Of a stretch of DNA of 42,022 nucleotides, positions 2,636 to 34,242 are shown piece by piece (the stretch's first letter is position 1; each line of letters begins with the position of its first letter). Made by a program: the position numbers and the translations under genes. A model generated the notes under the pieces. It was not told the DNA's origin and made no database searches. It saw nothing but the letters and a program-made list of their open reading frames with translations. This DNA comes from a virus: the IMG/VR virus record IMGVR_UViG_3300037468_000470, positions 1-42,022 of that record. One strand, given 5' to 3'.

Positions 2636-3120
2636 GACGAGTATCCGAACAGCGTGTGCGACAGGTAGCGGGCGAACATGTCGACGAAGATGAGCCCGAA
2701 GGCGAGCGCGAACCAGCGCAGGGTGCGCCATGCCCGCCGCAGGTCGCCCATCTCGCTGTCCTCAGGGAACGCCGACAGGCGCTTCTCAAGGAAGGCGCTA
2801 TCGGGCGGGTCGTCGGCGCGTCGCTCGGGGCCGTGGTGAGACGCCATGTGCTCGGTGTGGCGCACGTCGTGCTCAGAGGCGACGAACGCCTTGACGCGCT
2901 CCGAGCAGCCGACCGATACCGTCTCCAACTCCGAGACGCGCAGGCACAGGCTGATGTGCCGTTCGTCAACGTCGTCGAGGCGCCCGATGGTCTCGACGTG
3001 GCGCGCGTCGCCGTCGGCGTCCACGGCCAGCACGAGGTCGACGACGTCCTTGTTCGTCAGCGGGTCACCGTTGCGGCCCTTGGCCCACTCCCTTACCTTG
3101 CGTTCGGCGTTGTCGGTCAT
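2632..3120 (-). CDS. Small protein with C-terminal membrane helix, function unknown
   Basis: This 162-residue protein starts at ATG 3120, sharing ATGA with the stop of the preceding repeat protein. Most of it is charged and likely helical. Residues about 132-155 form a membrane-type segment (FALAFGLIFVDMFARYL). The tail-anchored shape and its position next to lysis genes suggest a membrane-associated accessory. No family is recognised. Confidence 0.65.
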   Translation of the reverse strand: MTDNAERKVREWAKGRNGDPLTNKDVVDLVLAVDADGDARHVETIGRLDDVDERHISLCLRVSELETVSVGCSERVKAFVASEHDVRHTEHMASHHGPERRADDPPDSAFLEKRLSAFPEDSEMGDLRRAWRTLRWFALAFGLIFVDMFARYLSHTLFGYSS

Positions 3121-3806
3121 GCCGGCCACATGCGCAGGACGAGGGTCGCGTAGCTACGGTACAAAGCCTCGCGGGTCTTGTCGCGGACAAATGACGGCGC
3201 GTCCGAGGGTGCGAATGCGTCTGAGTGCATCGGCCCCACAGCGCCACCGGCGTCGACGCTCTGCCAGGCGATGGTGCCCCCGGCCATGCAGGCTGCCTTG
3301 ATGGCATCTTCCTGCCCGTCGAGATCTGTGTGGCTCGTGCCCCTGCACTTCACCCGCACGCGCCGATCGAAGATGTCGGGGCGCATGTTGTGGAGCCCAA
3401 TCGAGCCGTCGTGGTGCTCCATCTTGTCGAAGACCTGCGGCTCGTCGCCGGGGTCGAACTCGACGACGTTGAGATTGATGCCGTTGAGCTGGCAGAATGT
3501 GCTCACGTCCTCTGGCCTCCGTTCTACGGTCCACTCAGCCGCGCCCGTGAGACGGACCAGGCTCTTCACGTTCCACCCGGCGCCCGCGAGGAGCCGCACG
3601 GGGTTCGCCGCCACAACGTTCCACGAAGCCTCCGCCGAGAGCGTGGTCGTGCCGCGCACGTTCCACCGCGCTCCAGCCGTCAAGACGACTGCCGCGGGCG
3701 CCCCGAGCACGTCCCAGCGGGCACCGGCAGAGAGCGTCGTGGTCTGCACGGCGGGCGTGCCCAGCACGTCCCATTCGGCAGCTGCTCCGAGGGCTACCTG
3801 TGCCAT
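3117..3806 (-). CDS. Tail-tip protein with N-terminal Trp repeats
   Basis: This 229-residue protein begins with six short repeats of the form Ala-x-Trp-Asx-Val (EWDVLG, RWDVLG, RWNVRG, SWNVVA, GWNVKS, EWTVER), spaced 14-19 residues apart over residues about 10-95. A non-repeated domain (about 100-229) rich in Asp and His follows. Repeats of this kind suggest an extended or beta-solenoid-like adhesive segment. The place after three tail-tip proteins supports a virion role. The exact function is unknown. The ribosome binding site before ATG 3806 is weak, and the gene is two bases from the upstream stop, which suggests translational coupling. Confidence 0.65.
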   Translation of the reverse strand: MAQVALGAAAEWDVLGTPAVQTTTLSAGARWDVLGAPAAVVLTAGARWNVRGTTTLSAEASWNVVAANPVRLLAGAGWNVKSLVRLTGAAEWTVERRPEDVSTFCQLNGINLNVVEFDPGDEPQVFDKMEHHDGSIGLHNMRPDIFDRRVRVKCRGTSHTDLDGQEDAIKAACMAGGTIAWQSVDAGGAVGPMHSDAFAPSDAPSFVRDKTREALYRSYATLVLRMWPA

Positions 3807-4546: not shown

Positions 4547-6493
4547 CTACCTCCTCCTGCCGCCGGAGCGGCCTCTGTCGTTTTGCCGACCGCGGTCGCG
4601 CCCGTCGCCCGGCGCTGCGGTGTTCGGCTTACCTGCGACGCGCGCGGGAAAGCGACCGTGGTAGCCGGTGGCACCCAGGGCGAGCGTCACCTGATCGCCG
4701 CCCACATTGAGCGTCGTCTGGGTGATGAGCGCACCCGAGATGCCGGCGCCGCCGAGGGTCTTGCCCGGCCGGATCTGGCTCGCGCCGACGATAGCCGTCA
4801 GGCCCACGCTGCCTGTCCACTGGCCTTCGCGGCGTTCGATGGCGATTGACTGGCCTATCCTCGCGGCGGCGATCTCGCTGCTCGCCTCGGAGGTCGCATC
4901 CTTGTAGGCCACGCGCTGACCGGCCGCGGGCTGCCAGTCGTCGGGCACGAGGCTGTAGGCGCCGTCCTTGTCGACGACCAGCTGCTTGACCACAGGCACG
5001 AGCATCTCGCCGGGCTTCGGCGCGACGTCTACGGTAGGGCAGAAGGCCACCTGCACCAGGTCGACGGCTCCCTCGTCGGAGGTTGCCGCGCCGGTCGTGT
5101 CGACGCCGATAGCGTCACTGATTGACGCGCTGCCGGGGTCGTGCGCGATGGTAAGCACCTTGTCTTCCCACCAGCCGTACTGCACCTCCTCGGGGTACAG
5201 CGAAAGCAGCTCAGGAACGGCGGCGCAGAGGGTCCGCGAGTCCGGGCGCAAGACGATCGACGTGGGCGCCGTGTCTTCGTCCGGCGCGGGCAGCTTCATC
5301 GATTCGAACGAGCCGGTGGGGAACAGGATCGTGAAGACGTCGGCGAGGTCGTCGCTGCCGTCGGCGCCCGACTCGTAGCCCTGTGAGTAGACGGAGACGT
5401 CGGTGATGCGCGCGGAGATGGGGCTGTTCGAGGCGCAGGCGTAGAGGCGATTTCTCGCAACCCACTTCGTGCGTACGAGGTGGTCGGCATTCTTCGAGTA
5501 CTTCGTGCCCAGGTTGTGCGGCAGCCTGACCGGCAGATAGGCGGCGTAGAAGACGATGAGCTTGCCGGCGCAGGCAAAGCGCAGGTTCTTGTGCTGGTAG
5601 AAGTCGTAGATGCTCCACTCGAACCGCTGGAGCAGGTGTGAGTCAGTGCGCATGGCGATGGGGTCGGCGAAGGGCAGGTCGCCAACGTCGTCGCAGACGT
5701 ACACGCCGAGGTAGTAGGGGCTTGGGCAGTTCGCCACGCCGTTGGCGTCGTAACCGCGCCCGTAGAACTCTGCCCAGTAGTCGATCCGGGGGTACTTCGC
5801 AAAGCGGTGCCCGTACTTCTCGTCGGCGGGGCCGATGGGGTTCGTGTAGTCGGGCGTCTTCTTGAAGATGTACGAGAATCCGAGCGTGAAGTCGCAAGTG
5901 GCCTGGAAGCTGAGGCCGGTGATGGTCTTGCTCCCGGCCAGCTTGTAGTACGCGGCGCTCCACAACTTTGGCGGCGCCGGGAAGTCCGAGTCGTCCCAGT
6001 GCGGCAGGCTGTTGCCGATGTGCTCGTAGGCGGTGCCAGTCTCGCTTTGGTAGCAGGTGAGCTTGTCGACGTCGGGCCACAGGAAGTTGAGCCCCTCGGA
6101 GGCGTCGACGTTGATTTGCCCCTCCGGCCACACGCCCCAGTTGTTGCAGTCCGTCGCGACCCACTGGCTGAGGTCACGGTCGACGAATACGCCCTCCACA
6201 GTCTCGTCTTCCTTGAACTCGTCAAAGTGCCCGACGCAGGACACGTGCCAGGAGTCCTGCGGGCCGACGCCGCTCGTGACGCTCGCGACCTTGCCCTCGA
6301 AGACGCGCCCACCTTCGACGTCGAACTCGATGGCTGTCCTCTTGGCGAGGCCGGGGTCCGAGAAGGTATCGAAGTCGCAGGTACCGAAGCCGCCCTTGGC
6401 GGTGTTGACGACGGAGATGTTGACGGCATCGGACGGCAAGCCGACGACGGTGCCCTTCAGCCTGTGCGGGATAACACCGTAGGTGGGGCTCAT
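4547..6493 (-). CDS. Minor tail / baseplate-hub-like protein
   Basis: This 648-residue protein lies third after the tape measure gene, where siphophages encode distal tail and hub proteins. The N-terminal 110 or so residues are beta-rich. The middle region is rich in Tyr and Trp, as in carbohydrate-facing tail proteins, and residues about 470-610 resemble the beta-barrel part of tail hubs. The last 25 residues are an odd Gly/Arg/Asp-rich tail (about 624-648) that may be disordered. ATG 6493 shares ATGA with the previous gene. Hub identity is inferred from order and size, with no motif certain. Confidence 0.65.
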   Translation of the reverse strand: MSPTYGVIPHRLKGTVVGLPSDAVNISVVNTAKGGFGTCDFDTFSDPGLAKRTAIEFDVEGGRVFEGKVASVTSGVGPQDSWHVSCVGHFDEFKEDETVEGVFVDRDLSQWVATDCNNWGVWPEGQINVDASEGLNFLWPDVDKLTCYQSETGTAYEHIGNSLPHWDDSDFPAPPKLWSAAYYKLAGSKTITGLSFQATCDFTLGFSYIFKKTPDYTNPIGPADEKYGHRFAKYPRIDYWAEFYGRGYDANGVANCPSPYYLGVYVCDDVGDLPFADPIAMRTDSHLLQRFEWSIYDFYQHKNLRFACAGKLIVFYAAYLPVRLPHNLGTKYSKNADHLVRTKWVARNRLYACASNSPISARITDVSVYSQGYESGADGSDDLADVFTILFPTGSFESMKLPAPDEDTAPTSIVLRPDSRTLCAAVPELLSLYPEEVQYGWWEDKVLTIAHDPGSASISDAIGVDTTGAATSDEGAVDLVQVAFCPTVDVAPKPGEMLVPVVKQLVVDKDGAYSLVPDDWQPAAGQRVAYKDATSEASSEIAAARIGQSIAIERREGQWTGSVGLTAIVGASQIRPGKTLGGAGISGALITQTTLNVGGDQVTLALGATGYHGRFPARVAGKPNTAAPGDGRDRGRQNDRGRSGGRRR

Positions 6494-22148: not shown

Positions 22149-22545
22149 GCATCACTTCCTCGACCATGAGGTCGACGAGCTGGCGGCGGGCGTCGTTCAG
22201 GTTGACCTCGATGGGCGCCTTGAGGCCGAGCAGATCGTTGATCTCCTTCTGCACGGCGAGTGCGTCTCTGTAGCTCTTGTCGTTCAAGCAGCGCGTGAAG
22301 AGGTCGTGGAGACGGCCCAGGGCGCGCCCGAACTCAAGCTCGCGGTCGTGCGCTCCCGACTCGATGAGGAGCTGCTTGGCCTTGGAGATGTAGACATCGA
22401 CGGTGCGCGGCCTGGAGCCCCAGGCAGGGTACTTCTTCTCGATGTGCTCAAGGATGCGTGGCCGGTCGAGGCCCAGCAGAAGGAGCCGGTAGACGACGTC
22501 CACGCGACGCGCGACGGCAGCCTTCGTTCCCTTAGTGCTGCTCAC
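22105..22545 (-). CDS. Terminase small subunit
   Basis: This 146-residue protein directly precedes TerL. Its first 75 residues form a helix-turn-helix-like DNA-binding part (VVYRLLLLGLDRPRILEHIEKKYPAWG, then RTVDVYISKAKQLL). The rest is helical, as expected for a ring-forming recognition subunit, and it ends in a flexible Ala/Gly-rich tail. GTG 22545 shares GTGA with the methyltransferase stop. Its target site on the genome is not recognised. Confidence 0.8.
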   Translation of the reverse strand: MSSTKGTKAAVARRVDVVYRLLLLGLDRPRILEHIEKKYPAWGSRPRTVDVYISKAKQLLIESGAHDRELEFGRALGRLHDLFTRCLNDKSYRDALAVQKEINDLLGLKAPIEVNLNDARRQLVDLMVEEVMREAENATAGAGQAG

Positions 22546-23822
22546 GGGAGGCGCTCCCGCGTCACATCGGCGAATGAGGCGCCGCTATCCGCGAGCGTCG
22601 CCTCTTCGCCCGTGTAGGCCTCCCAGCGCGACACGGCGGCGTCCACGAAGGCGGGGCTCTGCTCCATGGCGTAGCAGGCGCGGCCAGTGTTCTCGGCGGC
22701 GATGATCGCCGTGCCGCTTCCGCTGAACGGCTCGTAGATGAGGCCGCCTGGCTTGGTGTGGTAGAGGATCGGGCGACGGATCAGCTCGACTGGCTTCATG
22801 GTCGGGTGGATCGAGCCGGCGCCGTCTTCGATCTTGGACTCGATCTCCCAAACCGCCCTCGAGTCGGCCGGGGGCTTCAAGGGTGGCTGATGGCCCTGGC
22901 GCCAGCCGACGAGCAGCGGCTCGTAGTCCCACATGTACCAGGAGTAGGTGAGCACGCTGCGCGTCTTCTTCCAGATGAGGACTTGATGAGCAAGCAGGCC
23001 GACCTCGCGCCATGCCTGCCAGATGACCTCGCTGCGCATGATGCCGTAGCACTGGTACACGGCAGCATTGGCCGCCAGCGCGTCGTCGAGAGCGCAGCGC
23101 AGGAAGTCGACGTAGAACTCGACGGAGTGCTCGTGGTCGATGTAGGTATCCCAGTGCTTGTCCTTGTTCGCGGCGCCCTCGTTGGCTTCGCTCGCCGGGT
23201 GAGCACCGCCTTGGTAGTCGACGAGGTAGGGCGGGTCCGTGGCCATGAGCGACGCGCGCTTGCCAGCCATGAGCAGCTGCACGTCGTCGGCGCTCGTCGA
23301 GTCGCCGCAGAGCAGGCGGTGCTTGCCGAGCAGCCACAGGTCGCCGGTTCGAGACGCGGGGATCTCCGGAGGATCGCAGGGCGCGTCCTCGTCGGTCAGG
23401 CCTTCAGTGGGCTCTGCGAGAAGCGCCGCGATCTCATCCTGGTCGAACGCCGTCAGCTCGAGGTCGAAGTCCAGGCCGAGCAGCTCCTCAAGTTCGATGG
23501 CCAGCAGCTCGTCGTCCCACGATGTCTCTTGGCCGGTGCGATTGTCGGCGAGGCGCAGGGCCTTGACCTTGGCCGGCGAGAGGTCGGCGCAGACGATGAC
23601 GGGCACCCGTTCGAGCTCCAGGCGCTGCGCCGCCAGGAGGCGAGTGTGACCGGCGATGATGACGCCCTCACCGTCGACAAGGATCGGGTTGCGGAAGCCG
23701 AACTCGTGGATGCTGCCGGCGACCTTGGCGATCGCGGCCTCGGGACACACCCTGGCGTTGCGCGGATACGGAAGCAGGCGGGTGATGGGCCACTGCTCAA
23801 TGCTCACCTTGGTCGTGTTCAT
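22542..23822 (-). CDS. ParB-like nuclease domain fused to beta-class N6-adenine/N4-cytosine DNA methyltransferase
   Basis: This 426-residue protein starts at ATG 23822 (ATGA overlap). Residues about 8-100 are a ParB-like domain (LLPYPRNAR, IIAGHTRLLAAQRL). The methyltransferase part follows, with catalytic DPPY at 196-199 and the cofactor motif FSGSGTA at about 366-372. This order of motifs is typical of beta-class amino methyltransferases. Such fusions are common next to terminase genes of phages and may modify phage DNA against host restriction or mark DNA for packaging. No restriction partner lies nearby. Confidence 0.88.
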   Translation of the reverse strand: MNTTKVSIEQWPITRLLPYPRNARVCPEAAIAKVAGSIHEFGFRNPILVDGEGVIIAGHTRLLAAQRLELERVPVIVCADLSPAKVKALRLADNRTGQETSWDDELLAIELEELLGLDFDLELTAFDQDEIAALLAEPTEGLTDEDAPCDPPEIPASRTGDLWLLGKHRLLCGDSTSADDVQLLMAGKRASLMATDPPYLVDYQGGAHPASEANEGAANKDKHWDTYIDHEHSVEFYVDFLRCALDDALAANAAVYQCYGIMRSEVIWQAWREVGLLAHQVLIWKKTRSVLTYSWYMWDYEPLLVGWRQGHQPPLKPPADSRAVWEIESKIEDGAGSIHPTMKPVELIRRPILYHTKPGGLIYEPFSGSGTAIIAAENTGRACYAMEQSPAFVDAAVSRWEAYTGEEATLADSGASFADVTRERLP

Positions 23823-24232
23823 GCCTTGATCGTCCTTCCGCCGCGAGTCCGAATTGCTACGAGTTTGCGGCCGGCTGCTCCGACGCCCACGACGCGCACC
23901 ATGCCGCTGGCGTTGAGGCGCGTCACGGAGGCATGGATGGCGTTGTAGTTCTCCTTCAGCGAGTCGCAGCCGAGCGCCCGGTAGAGGTTCACCGGGGAGC
24001 CGTGGGCGCGCCACAGCAGCAGGAGGATGTGCTCGTCGAGGCGAGGGTCGTGGTGGGGGTTGTAGCCGTCGTGGGGATGCGAGTCACAGACGCAGTCGCC
24101 GAGCACGTGATCGCCGCGCAGGTCCGCGCCGCACACGACGCAGCTGGTCTTCTGCTGGCGAAGGGAGGTACTGGACCTGCCGCATTTGACGACGATCGGT
24201 TCGGGGCGGGCGGGGCGATGGCACTCGACCAT
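23819..24232 (-). CDS. Zinc-binding winged-helix protein, possible late-gene regulator
   Basis: This 137-residue protein starts at ATG 24232, with GGCGGAG eight bases upstream. Cysteines at 31, 34, 47 and 49 (CVVCGADL..GDCVC) could form a small zinc site. Residues about 65-125 look like a winged helix (LDEHILLLLWRAHG, VTRLNASGMVRVVG). It lies second in the late block, upstream of the methyltransferase. A DNA-binding, regulatory role is reasonable but unproven. Confidence 0.65.
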   Translation of the reverse strand: MVECHRPARPEPIVVKCGRSSTSLRQQKTSCVVCGADLRGDHVLGDCVCDSHPHDGYNPHHDPRLDEHILLLLWRAHGSPVNLYRALGCDSLKENYNAIHASVTRLNASGMVRVVGVGAAGRKLVAIRTRGGRTIKA

Positions 24233-28324: not shown

Positions 28325-28510
28325 GTGATCGCCTCCTGGGGCGGTTGCCACGCCCCGGGCCGTTCCAGCGGCGCCGGGGCACTTGTCGGTCTTGGGGGCC
28401 CGCGAGACCTCGTGTCGCAGGTCTGCGCGAGATGTGAAGCGAGCGCCCAAATGGCTGCCAGACGAAACGCTGACAGAAGCAACGCGAATGGCGCCTTGTT
28501 CGGGCCTGTG

Positions 28511-28554
28511 AGCGCGATGTTCAAACCTTAAGAGAGTGGTTTGAACATCGCGCT
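28511..28554. repeat. Perfect 17-bp inverted repeat, half-site GCGATGTTCAAA
   Basis: AGCGCGATGTTCAAACC (28511-28527) is repeated in inverse at 28538-28554 without mismatch around a 10-base spacer. The same half-site recurs in the next repeat. No U tract follows in either direction, so a simple terminator is unlikely. A protein-binding site or origin element is more likely. Confidence 0.85.
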
Positions 28555-28592
28555 TTACACGTTGGCCGTGGTGTTTACCATCGCAAAACGGT

Positions 28593-28624
28593 GCGATGTT
28601 CAAATACGTCCCTTTGAACATCGC
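28593..28624. repeat. Perfect 12-bp inverted repeat, same half-site
   Basis: GCGATGTTCAAA (28593-28604) is repeated in inverse at 28613-28624 around an 8-base spacer. A fifth, partial half-site ending in CATCGC lies at about 28573-28584. The right arm ends three bases before the primase-helicase stop codon. Confidence 0.85.
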
Positions 28625-28626
28625 CA

Positions 28627-30339
28627 TTATTTGGCCTCTTCTCGCCAGTAGACCGCTACCTGTCCGTGGCCGTCGCTCCGGGCCCGTTTCCCGACGCTGA
28701 TGACGCCCCTCTTGGTGAGGTCTTGAAGCGCCCTCCGGGCCACTGTGTGGTCGATCTCCAGGCGCTCCCGGAGGTCGCTCTCGCTGAGCGCCCACTGCTC
28801 GCCCATGGGCAGGACCTCGAGGATCTGTAGCTCAACCTCGCGCCGGCGCCCCTCGGCGTTTTCCATGACCACCCGATAGCCGCCCTCCTCCAGTTCGATG
28901 GTCACCGCTCCAGGCGTCTCGTCGAAGCGTCCCACGGCGTGCAGCTCACGGCGGTTGTCGTGGCCACGGCCGCGCGTCCGGCGCAGCGAGACAAGGATGT
29001 CCATGGCCCCGCCGAATGCAGACGAGCCGCGAGCGCTCTCGCCGATGTCGCCGGTGCCCTTGCGTTCATGGCGTATGGCGATCACGGCGCGGCCCGAGTC
29101 GGCCAGGGCGCGTAGGGGCGCCATGGCGGCCAGGGCGGCTCCGGCTGAGTTCTCGTCGTCACCGCGGAGGCCGGCCCAGTCGGAGAGTGTGTCCGTGACC
29201 ACGAGGTCGATGTGGTGCTGCTCGCAGTAGGCGAGCACAAGCTCGCCGATCTGATCCCAGGCGAGGCTGCGCACAGATCCCCGCATGAGTACGTGGCAAC
29301 TGTCACCGCGAGCGTTGATGCCGGAGCGCTTGGCGCCAGCGACGAAGCTGCCGCGGCTTTCCTCCGTCATGTAGAGCACGCGGCAGGCGAAGGTCGCGTG
29401 CCCGATGTACTCCTCGCCGGCGAGGATGCGCGCCACCGCCTCCATCACAAAGCGCGTTTTGCCGACCTTGGGCTTCGCCGCGACCTCCGTGATCGCACCA
29501 CGGGCGACGTAGCCAAAGAGCACGTACTCGGGCCGTTCTGGCGCTGAGGCCATGAGGTCGGCCAGTGTGACCGCTGGCAGAGTCGTAGCCGGCGCTGCGT
29601 CCTGCCCCCCGCGGCAGGCGACGAACTCGCTGGTCGTGTAGCCGGCGTCGAGGTGGTCGGAGGCATCCTTTCCTTCAACAGCCTCCACAATGCTGATGTC
29701 TGCCGCCCTGCCGGCCAGAGACGCAGCGACCGCGAAGGCATGCTTGCGGCCGGGCTCGTCCTTGTCGGCGACGATGACCACCTTGGCCCCGGAGAGCGCA
29801 GTCGTGTACTCGTCCCGCCACTTGCCGGCGCCGGCGGCGTTGCAGGTCGCCGTGAGCCCAAGCTCGGCGAGGGCGTCGGCGTCCTTCTCACCCTCGACCA
29901 CGTAGACCAGCTCGCCGCCGGCAATCGCCGCGAGAACCTGCGGCAGGCGGTAGAGAACGCGCCGCGTGCCCGCAAGCTTCCACTCCCAGCCACCGCTGCC
30001 GTTCGGCTTGCGCTGACGGAAGTCCTTGGGCGTGAAGCGCACCACCTGGAAGAGCAACTCGCCGCTTTCGTCGACGTAGTCGTAGGTGGCGACGATCTTG
30101 CGCTGCCCGTTGCCGTTCTGCTTCTCCGGGAAGAGGTCGGCCAGGGCGACGCCGAGCGCGCCGCAGACGGCCTCCGTGTCGCAGCCGGCAAAGCAGGTGA
30201 CGAGCAGGCGGCCGTCATCACCCATGCCCACCGACAGGCTCTGCCGGTGGTCCTCGTGGGCCGGGCAGCGGGCGACGAATCCGGCCTCGCCGGAGCGCTT
30301 CACCCCGTCGAGGCGGCTGAGAAGCTCGTCAAGTAGCAT
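28627..30339 (-). CDS. Primase-helicase fusion (CHC2-type zinc finger, TOPRIM, RepA-like ATPase)
   Basis: This 570-residue protein is the main replication enzyme. Residues about 22-55 form a primase zinc finger (Cys25, His28, Cys49, Cys53). A TOPRIM part follows with VYVVEGEKDADAL (about 145-157) and VVIVADKDEPG (about 187-197). The helicase part has Walker A AAKPKVGKT (about 287-295) and Walker B LVVTD (about 379-383). The last 75 residues look like a winged helix (SESDLRERLEIDHTVARRALQDL). It would open and prime the phage origin. ATG 30339 overlaps the previous gene by 11 bases. Inverted repeats follow the stop. Confidence 0.9.
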   Translation of the reverse strand: MLLDELLSRLDGVKRSGEAGFVARCPAHEDHRQSLSVGMGDDGRLLVTCFAGCDTEAVCGALGVALADLFPEKQNGNGQRKIVATYDYVDESGELLFQVVRFTPKDFRQRKPNGSGGWEWKLAGTRRVLYRLPQVLAAIAGGELVYVVEGEKDADALAELGLTATCNAAGAGKWRDEYTTALSGAKVVIVADKDEPGRKHAFAVAASLAGRAADISIVEAVEGKDASDHLDAGYTTSEFVACRGGQDAAPATTLPAVTLADLMASAPERPEYVLFGYVARGAITEVAAKPKVGKTRFVMEAVARILAGEEYIGHATFACRVLYMTEESRGSFVAGAKRSGINARGDSCHVLMRGSVRSLAWDQIGELVLAYCEQHHIDLVVTDTLSDWAGLRGDDENSAGAALAAMAPLRALADSGRAVIAIRHERKGTGDIGESARGSSAFGGAMDILVSLRRTRGRGHDNRRELHAVGRFDETPGAVTIELEEGGYRVVMENAEGRRREVELQILEVLPMGEQWALSESDLRERLEIDHTVARRALQDLTKRGVISVGKRARSDGHGQVAVYWREEAK

Positions 30340-33922: not shown

Positions 33923-33985
33923 GTGTGTTCCCCCAAAGGTTAGCCCATCAGGGCTATTGCTGTATCAGTTCCCCCTTTCCGTCAT

Positions 33986-34002
33986 CGTGCGTTGCCGTGC
34001 GT
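33986..34002. promoter_or_regulatory. Operator-like CGTGCGT pair at the early promoter
   Basis: CGTGCGT occurs at 33986-33992 and 33996-34002, exactly 10 bases apart, directly downstream of the -10 element of the leftward promoter, where a bound protein would block initiation. The same pair, in inverse orientation and with the same spacing, lies at 24574-24590 before the late block. Confidence 0.5.
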
Positions 34003-34004
34003 TC

Positions 34005-34033
34005 AAGCTATATCAGAGGTCAACGAAAGTCAA
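34005..34033 (-). promoter_or_regulatory. Candidate early leftward promoter
   Basis: The minus strand reads TTGACT (34033-34028), 17 bases, then TAGCTT (34010-34005), fitting the TAnnnT -10 of high-GC Gram-positives. TATAGC at 34012-34007 is an alternative -10 with 15-base spacing. A second TTGACC overlaps the spacer. It precedes the early block, whose first gene starts at 33922. Confidence 0.55.
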
Positions 34034-34242
34034 CCTTTTACGATGAACCTTCCCCCGTTTTGAAGCTTCCAGGCATTCCAGTCCTTGACCAGAACGAGTC
34101 GGCGGCCGCCGCCCCTGCTCCAGTGCCACGGGATCTCCCCGTCCTCCAGCAGCGCAATGGCAGTGGTTCGGTTCACACCGAGCTCCTGAGCGATCTGGCC
34201 GGTCGTGTAGGGCTTCAGACTTCCCGGCTTGCGTGGTGCCAT
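34030..34242 (-). CDS. Small helix-turn-helix protein (excisionase/MerR-like)
   Basis: This 70-residue protein has a MerR/excisionase-type motif: YTTGQIAQELGVNRTTAIALLEDGEIPWHWS, in part, then RRLVLVKDWNAW, covering residues about 12-58. ATG 34242 follows GGGGGAG. It has its own candidate promoter and a SOS-box-like palindrome further upstream, so it is a candidate switch regulator or excisionase. The early promoter overlaps its stop codon. Confidence 0.75.
   Translation of the reverse strand: MAPRKPGSLKPYTTGQIAQELGVNRTTAIALLEDGEIPWHWSRGGGRRLVLVKDWNAWKLQNGGRFIVKG

Follow-up and report, generated by a model that had tools for sequence, protein, structure and literature searches.

What do two perfect inverted repeats do immediately downstream of a phage primase-helicase gene: do they mark an origin of replication or serve as an operator? 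The original prediction named both possibilities for this locus, and both fit its place beside the primase-helicase. Judging from sequence comparisons, relatives and the parallel with P4 and PICI elements favour an origin over an operator and make the winged helix of the enzyme the likely binder. We therefore consider it quite probable that the locus forms all or an essential part of the phage replication origin and is read by the C-terminal winged helix of the primase-helicase itself. This reading is grounded in the repeats, the domain anatomy of the enzyme, the conservation of the layout and the coordinated switching of half-sites in relatives, all of which are observed directly. The features concerned are listed in Table 1, in which the window means the whole 42,022-base stretch of DNA analysed.

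Table 1. Features of the window around the inverted repeats, and repeat arrays in intergenic gaps after related primase genes in other replicons (positions are those of each replicon).
Feature	Position	Strand	Details
ParB-like/DNA methyltransferase fusion protein (matches phage families of both kinds)	22542-24014	-	
Integrase	24720-25994		gene ~2.5 kb from the repeats
Next gene, 87 aa	28061-28324	-	start ~190 bp beyond inverted repeat 1
Intergenic region, proposed origin	28325-28626		60% GC; between primase-helicase stop and next minus-strand start
Inverted repeat 1	28511-28554		AGCGCGATGTTCAAACC-10 nt-GGTTTGAACATCGCGCT; arms 28511-28527/28538-28554, 17 bp, 100% identical; long-spaced, TA-containing core
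Core of inverted repeat 1	28528-28537		minus strand ACTCTCTTAA; candidate melting site, from comparison
Weak fifth half-site	28574-28584		TTTACCATCGC; 9/11 bases matching
Inverted repeat 2	28593-28624		GCGATGTTCAAA-8 nt-TTTGAACATCGC; arms 28593-28604/28613-28624, 12 bp, 100% identical; short-spaced
Primase-helicase, 570 aa	28627-30339	-	PHROG primase/helicase, Pfam, AlphaFold/Foldseek
C-terminal winged helix, residues 495-570, proposed half-site reader	28630-28857	-	Pfam wHTH families at 502-567
Array in Roseomonas 9.7 kb plasmid (L172)	6108-6690		TCCAGGG x9
Array in Salinibacter plasmid pSR11 (L171)	2725-3230		TAACACA x4
Array in Rhizobium phage RHph_Y3_1 (L176)	5698-6010		GTTCCCA x9
Array in Salinibacter phage (L174)	6244-6915		TAACACA x5

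Both repeats are built from one half-site, the 12-mer GCGATGTTCAAA, which is present in four exact copies, one per arm, all within 28514-28624, and has no other exact copy in the 42,022-base record. The four half-sites originally described as perfect 17-bp and 12-bp inverted repeats are thus exactly that; of the five originally counted, four are exact and the last is weak. When up to two mismatches are allowed, the record holds eight matches to the 12-mer, against 1.64 expected and a maximum of five in 100 shuffles. The window has no other perfect inverted repeats with arms of 12 bp or more and a spacer of up to 30, and one of five shuffled sequences held such a repeat (12-13 bp). The locus (28511-28624) has a GC content of 48%, against ~67% for the window, whose lowest-GC 114-bp stretch begins at 28517 (45%); the AT-richness that had been claimed therefore holds only relative to this genome. 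Another low-GC stretch, the second lowest in the window, lies elsewhere, at 33955-34068 (47%). Within the 48% GC region, the 38 bp between the two palindromes contain no strong AT-rich unwinding stretch, which counts against an origin, and the TA-containing core sits inside inverted repeat 1. GC skew has no informative turning point at the locus, which neither helps nor hurts the case. Searching viral and genome collections for the window's palindrome returned one viral contig (L017) and scattered genomes, which we take as chance matches, and an exact search of viral contigs with the centre CAAAGGG-ACGTATTTG found flanking arms only in the contig of the nearest relative (L005).

The primase-helicase, encoded on the minus strand, ends in a TAA stop codon (28627-28629) only 2 nt from the start of inverted repeat 2. 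It consists of a zinc-finger-like N-terminus, a Toprim domain (146-229), a RecA-fold AAA_25 helicase (252-429) and the C-terminal winged helix. A Toprim primase is thus fused to a RecA-fold helicase in the manner of T7 gp4 (Pfam, Foldseek), and the same analyses found no P4-type (D5/DUF5906/VapE-like) helicase domain in the enzyme, AAA_25 with a RecA fold being present instead. The predicted structure (AlphaFold/Foldseek) is closest to T7 gp4, Twinkle and RepA, with RSF1010 RepA matching the helicase part (1nlf among the matches). The winged helix is modelled by AlphaFold as an H-H-H-E-E fold with a pLDDT of about 87-94 over most of the domain, for which Foldseek matched generic wHTH regulators, none below E 0.001. 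Likewise, a PDB sequence search with this domain gave generic winged-helix-type matches only (eS25, MarR) and did not recover P4 alpha. The next gene, beyond the repeats, has no PHROG or Pfam match, and L005 apparently lacks it between its origin-like region and the gene that follows.

The enzyme of this nearest relative is 63% identical to that of the window and its gene is also followed, directly after the stop, by a pair of palindromes ordered as in the window (GCGTTGCCCAAA-9-TTTGGGCAACG and GCGTTGCCCAAACC-11-GGTTTGGGCAACGC). Its half-site is its own: in GCGTTGCCCAAA, the ATGTT of the window has become TTGCC, in 4/4 arms. The elements kept between the two phages are the inner AAA, the CC/GG of inverted repeat 1, and both the inner part of inverted repeat 2 (AAGGGACGTATT vs AAGGGGACGTATT) and its GGGACGTA spacer, 8 nt long in the window and 9 nt in L005. 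Across the two proteins, the winged helix is the most divergent part (46% identity; Toprim part 68%, helicase 66%). That the two-palindrome layout persists in this position with another half-site, while the winged helix has diverged most, argues for an origin read by that domain. The conservation in relatives to which the original prediction had looked is therefore found in the layout, but not in the letters of the half-site.

Is such a layout common? Two IMG/VR searches gave more than 150 loci with related primases, some being the same contigs, and each was scored for at least five copies of one 7-mer, on either strand, in the 320 bp past the primase stop (the repeats of L010 and L011, which lie inside the ORF as bounded, were left out of the count). 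Five or more copies were found in 27/128 distinct downstream windows vs 54/3,742 control windows of the same loci (odds ratio 18; Fisher p 3e-21, which overstates the case because related sequences are not independent), an enrichment that supports the origin reading. In many more distant relatives, phage-specific 7-mers form inverted and direct pairs directly after the primase stop, in 4-11 copies and with up to 11 spread over ~200 bp, for example TGTCCCA x11 (L103), TGCCCCA x11 (L104), TGATACG x9-10 (L187, L188), TGTCCAC x8 (L183) and TTGCTCA x6 (L102). By plain 7-mer count the window is unexceptional, its four copies being reached in 31/513 of its own control windows, which we count against it; what speaks for it instead is the length of its perfect palindromes, together with L005.

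Arrays also go with the winged helix, which again favours an origin: 8/17 AAA_25 enzymes with this domain are followed by at least five copies (the window and L184 have four), as against 0/15 of those ending within 40 aa past the helicase. Among the winged-helix enzymes, L109, L189, L194 and L195 have arrays farther downstream, and L100 and L117 have no array directly after the gene, which counts against the origin reading. In L093, L095, L097, L099, L116, L120, L124, L125 and similar loci, the Toprim-AAA_25 protein ends right after the helicase, with neither winged helix nor adjacent array, and their origins must be specified in another way. The arrays have an internal order too. A long-spaced distal pair with a TA-containing core recurs in the window, L005, L103, L104, L183, L184, L187 and L188 (cores CTCTTAAGG, CCCTAGG, CCTTATATAAGG, CCCTTTATAAGG and CTATATAG), and a short-spaced pair nearer the stop is found in the window, L005, L103, L104 and L183, its spacers elsewhere being 7-9 nt long and of unrelated sequence. 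In L102, L187 and L188, and similarly in L183, L184 and L194, a conserved element close to AAACCCGCATGAATACTGGGTTT lies between the repeats and stays constant while the half-site changes. Small plasmids with related primases, the Roseomonas plasmid and pSR11, carry arrays at the same place (Table 1), as expected of an origin. Other array carriers (L122, L126, L172) have P4-type helicase domains (D5/DUF5906/VapE-like), and Mycobacterium phage Colbert, which encodes a related primase, has no array after the gene.

A further comparison is between L103 and L104, whose enzymes are 90% identical and whose arrays follow the primase stops (3042 and 2431, respectively). From one to the other, TGTCCCA becomes TGCCCCA, the same base having changed in 11/11 half-sites, mirrored in the reverse copies, with no further half-site base altered and with spacers that differ at 56/150 positions. 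In the proteins, 8/21 residues differ in the segment 583-603, spanning the recognition helix, vs 10% overall (Fisher p 4e-4, for a segment chosen after inspection). A half-site switch accompanied by changes in the recognition-helix region is what is predicted for a protein reading the half-sites, whereas RNA pairing needs none, and it speaks for the origin reading. We nevertheless count against this argument that an operator read by the same winged helix would co-vary too.

Origins in known systems occupy the same position, which also favours the origin reading. In P4, our positive control, crr with ten type 1 iterons (TGTTCACC) lies directly 3' of the alpha gene, and the iteron has TGTTCA in common with the window half-site GCGATGTTCAAA. 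Unlike the window, P4 has a second ori region ~2 kb past the opposite end of alpha, and its iterons are short, direct or inverted, where the window has two long perfect palindromes; the four good half-sites of the window, fewer than in crr or in L103, count against an origin. The helicase of P4 alpha belongs to a class that differs from the RecA fold. Given the RecA-fold helicase of the window enzyme, the notion that it works like P4/PICI initiators is supported, whereas the notion that it is a P4 alpha protein is not. T7 gp4 and Twinkle are the best structural matches of the whole protein and yet, to our knowledge, T7 gp4 has neither a C-terminal winged helix nor such an adjacent iteron origin. 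RSF1010, which has an iteron origin, has in RepA a RecA-fold helicase like that of the window enzyme. Its RepA, RepB and RepC are three separate polypeptides (PMC4234260), whereas in the window these functions are fused and the proposed reader sits on the primase-helicase itself. P4 alpha is, like the window enzyme, a single polypeptide with a Toprim primase, a helicase and a winged helix at its C-terminus (PMC4234260). In pRN1, the origin lies directly downstream of the gene for ORF904, a primase-helicase that carries a winged helix at its C-terminus (PMC4234260), but this is an archaeal plasmid with a 100-nt stem-loop instead of iterons. Finally, in PICI/SaPI elements the origin is immediately 3' of the initiator gene and its iterons are recognised by the C-terminal domain of the initiator (PMC6092414, PMC7581432). 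As satellites, these elements use helicases of other families and flank an AT-rich stretch with two sets of iterons; the window, by contrast, comes from a tailed phage, its enzyme is T7-gp4-like and its good half-sites number only four. What the window has in common with P4/PICI-type origins is repeats directly 3' of the gene, several replicon-specific copies and a C-terminal winged helix on the initiator.

Initiation might then proceed as follows: (i) the primase-helicase would bind the GCGATGTTCAAA half-sites through its own C-terminal winged helix, with paired subunits on each palindrome, (ii) the RecA-fold helicase would be loaded by the bound complexes where the DNA is locally AT-rich, the TA-containing core of inverted repeat 1 probably being opened, and (iii) the fused Toprim primase would prime synthesis.

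The main rival, which we regard as unlikely, is an operator through which a repressor, or the primase-helicase itself, regulates how the genes that follow the primase are transcribed, or else an origin that also works as such an autoregulatory site. Perfect palindromes between two same-strand genes would suit it, as would the -10-like TA core of some relatives and the single weak promoter-like match, which is on the opposite (+) strand. However, a phage repressor with several operators would have copies of the half-site at several promoters, and these are not found in this record, where the search of the rest of the genome that had been proposed gave no further copy. Nor does an operator account readily for up to 11 copies over ~200 bp in relatives, for half-sites that switch together with the winged helix of the primase, or for small plasmids that put such arrays after the same gene.

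Far less probable still are two readings that do without initiation. The repeats could act as RNA hairpins past the primase coding sequence, that is, as a terminator, attenuator or processing sites, and their perfect stems do remain paired as the sequence changes; but a stem sequence common to two hairpins, and direct copies changing together with the inverted ones, are unneeded for RNA pairing and fit a protein reading DNA. There is moreover no T tract after a GC-rich stem on the coding strand, and the locus has no Rfam match above chance. An intrinsic terminator is rejected for lack of a T tract on the transcribed strand, in agreement with the original prediction, which had discounted terminators in the absence of U tracts; no good terminator was found at the locus, the one match being a weak T-tail on the + strand. 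It is just as improbable that the locus is a recombination, partition or packaging site, for which the 12-bp arms and conserved 8/9-nt asymmetric spacer of inverted repeat 2 would resemble a tyrosine-recombinase core site or a centromere, in a phage that encodes both an integrase and a ParB-like protein. The spacer, conserved in L005, nonetheless varies in length there and is unrelated in sequence elsewhere, the integrase gene is at a distance, and across relatives it is the primase gene, with its winged helix, that such repeats accompany.

The layout of an origin after its initiator gene is already known; its occurrence on a T7-gp4-type, RecA-fold enzyme in ordinary phages, with natural switching of initiator and iterons, appears to be new, and in the open-access literature searched (which misses most subscription journals) we found no account of origins of this kind for T7-gp4-like enzymes of phages. 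A broader proposition, to which we give roughly equal belief and doubt, is that in a large phage group T7-gp4-type primase-helicases have turned into self-contained, origin-specific initiators by gaining a C-terminal winged helix and matching adjacent iterons, that the two co-evolve rapidly and that pairs like L103/L104 represent specificity switches against cross-initiation of related replicons. If true, ordinary phages and small plasmids would widely share a similar layout of initiator then iterons, joined to helicases of different classes. Most environmental phages have unmapped origins, and the rule that we offer for finding them is to seek a phage-specific repeated word immediately behind a primase-helicase gene whose product has a winged helix at its end. 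The correspondence between recognition helix and half-site would amount to a testable code. With their near-identical primase-helicases and a one-base switch in all 11 half-sites, L103 and L104 form a ready specificity-swap pair.
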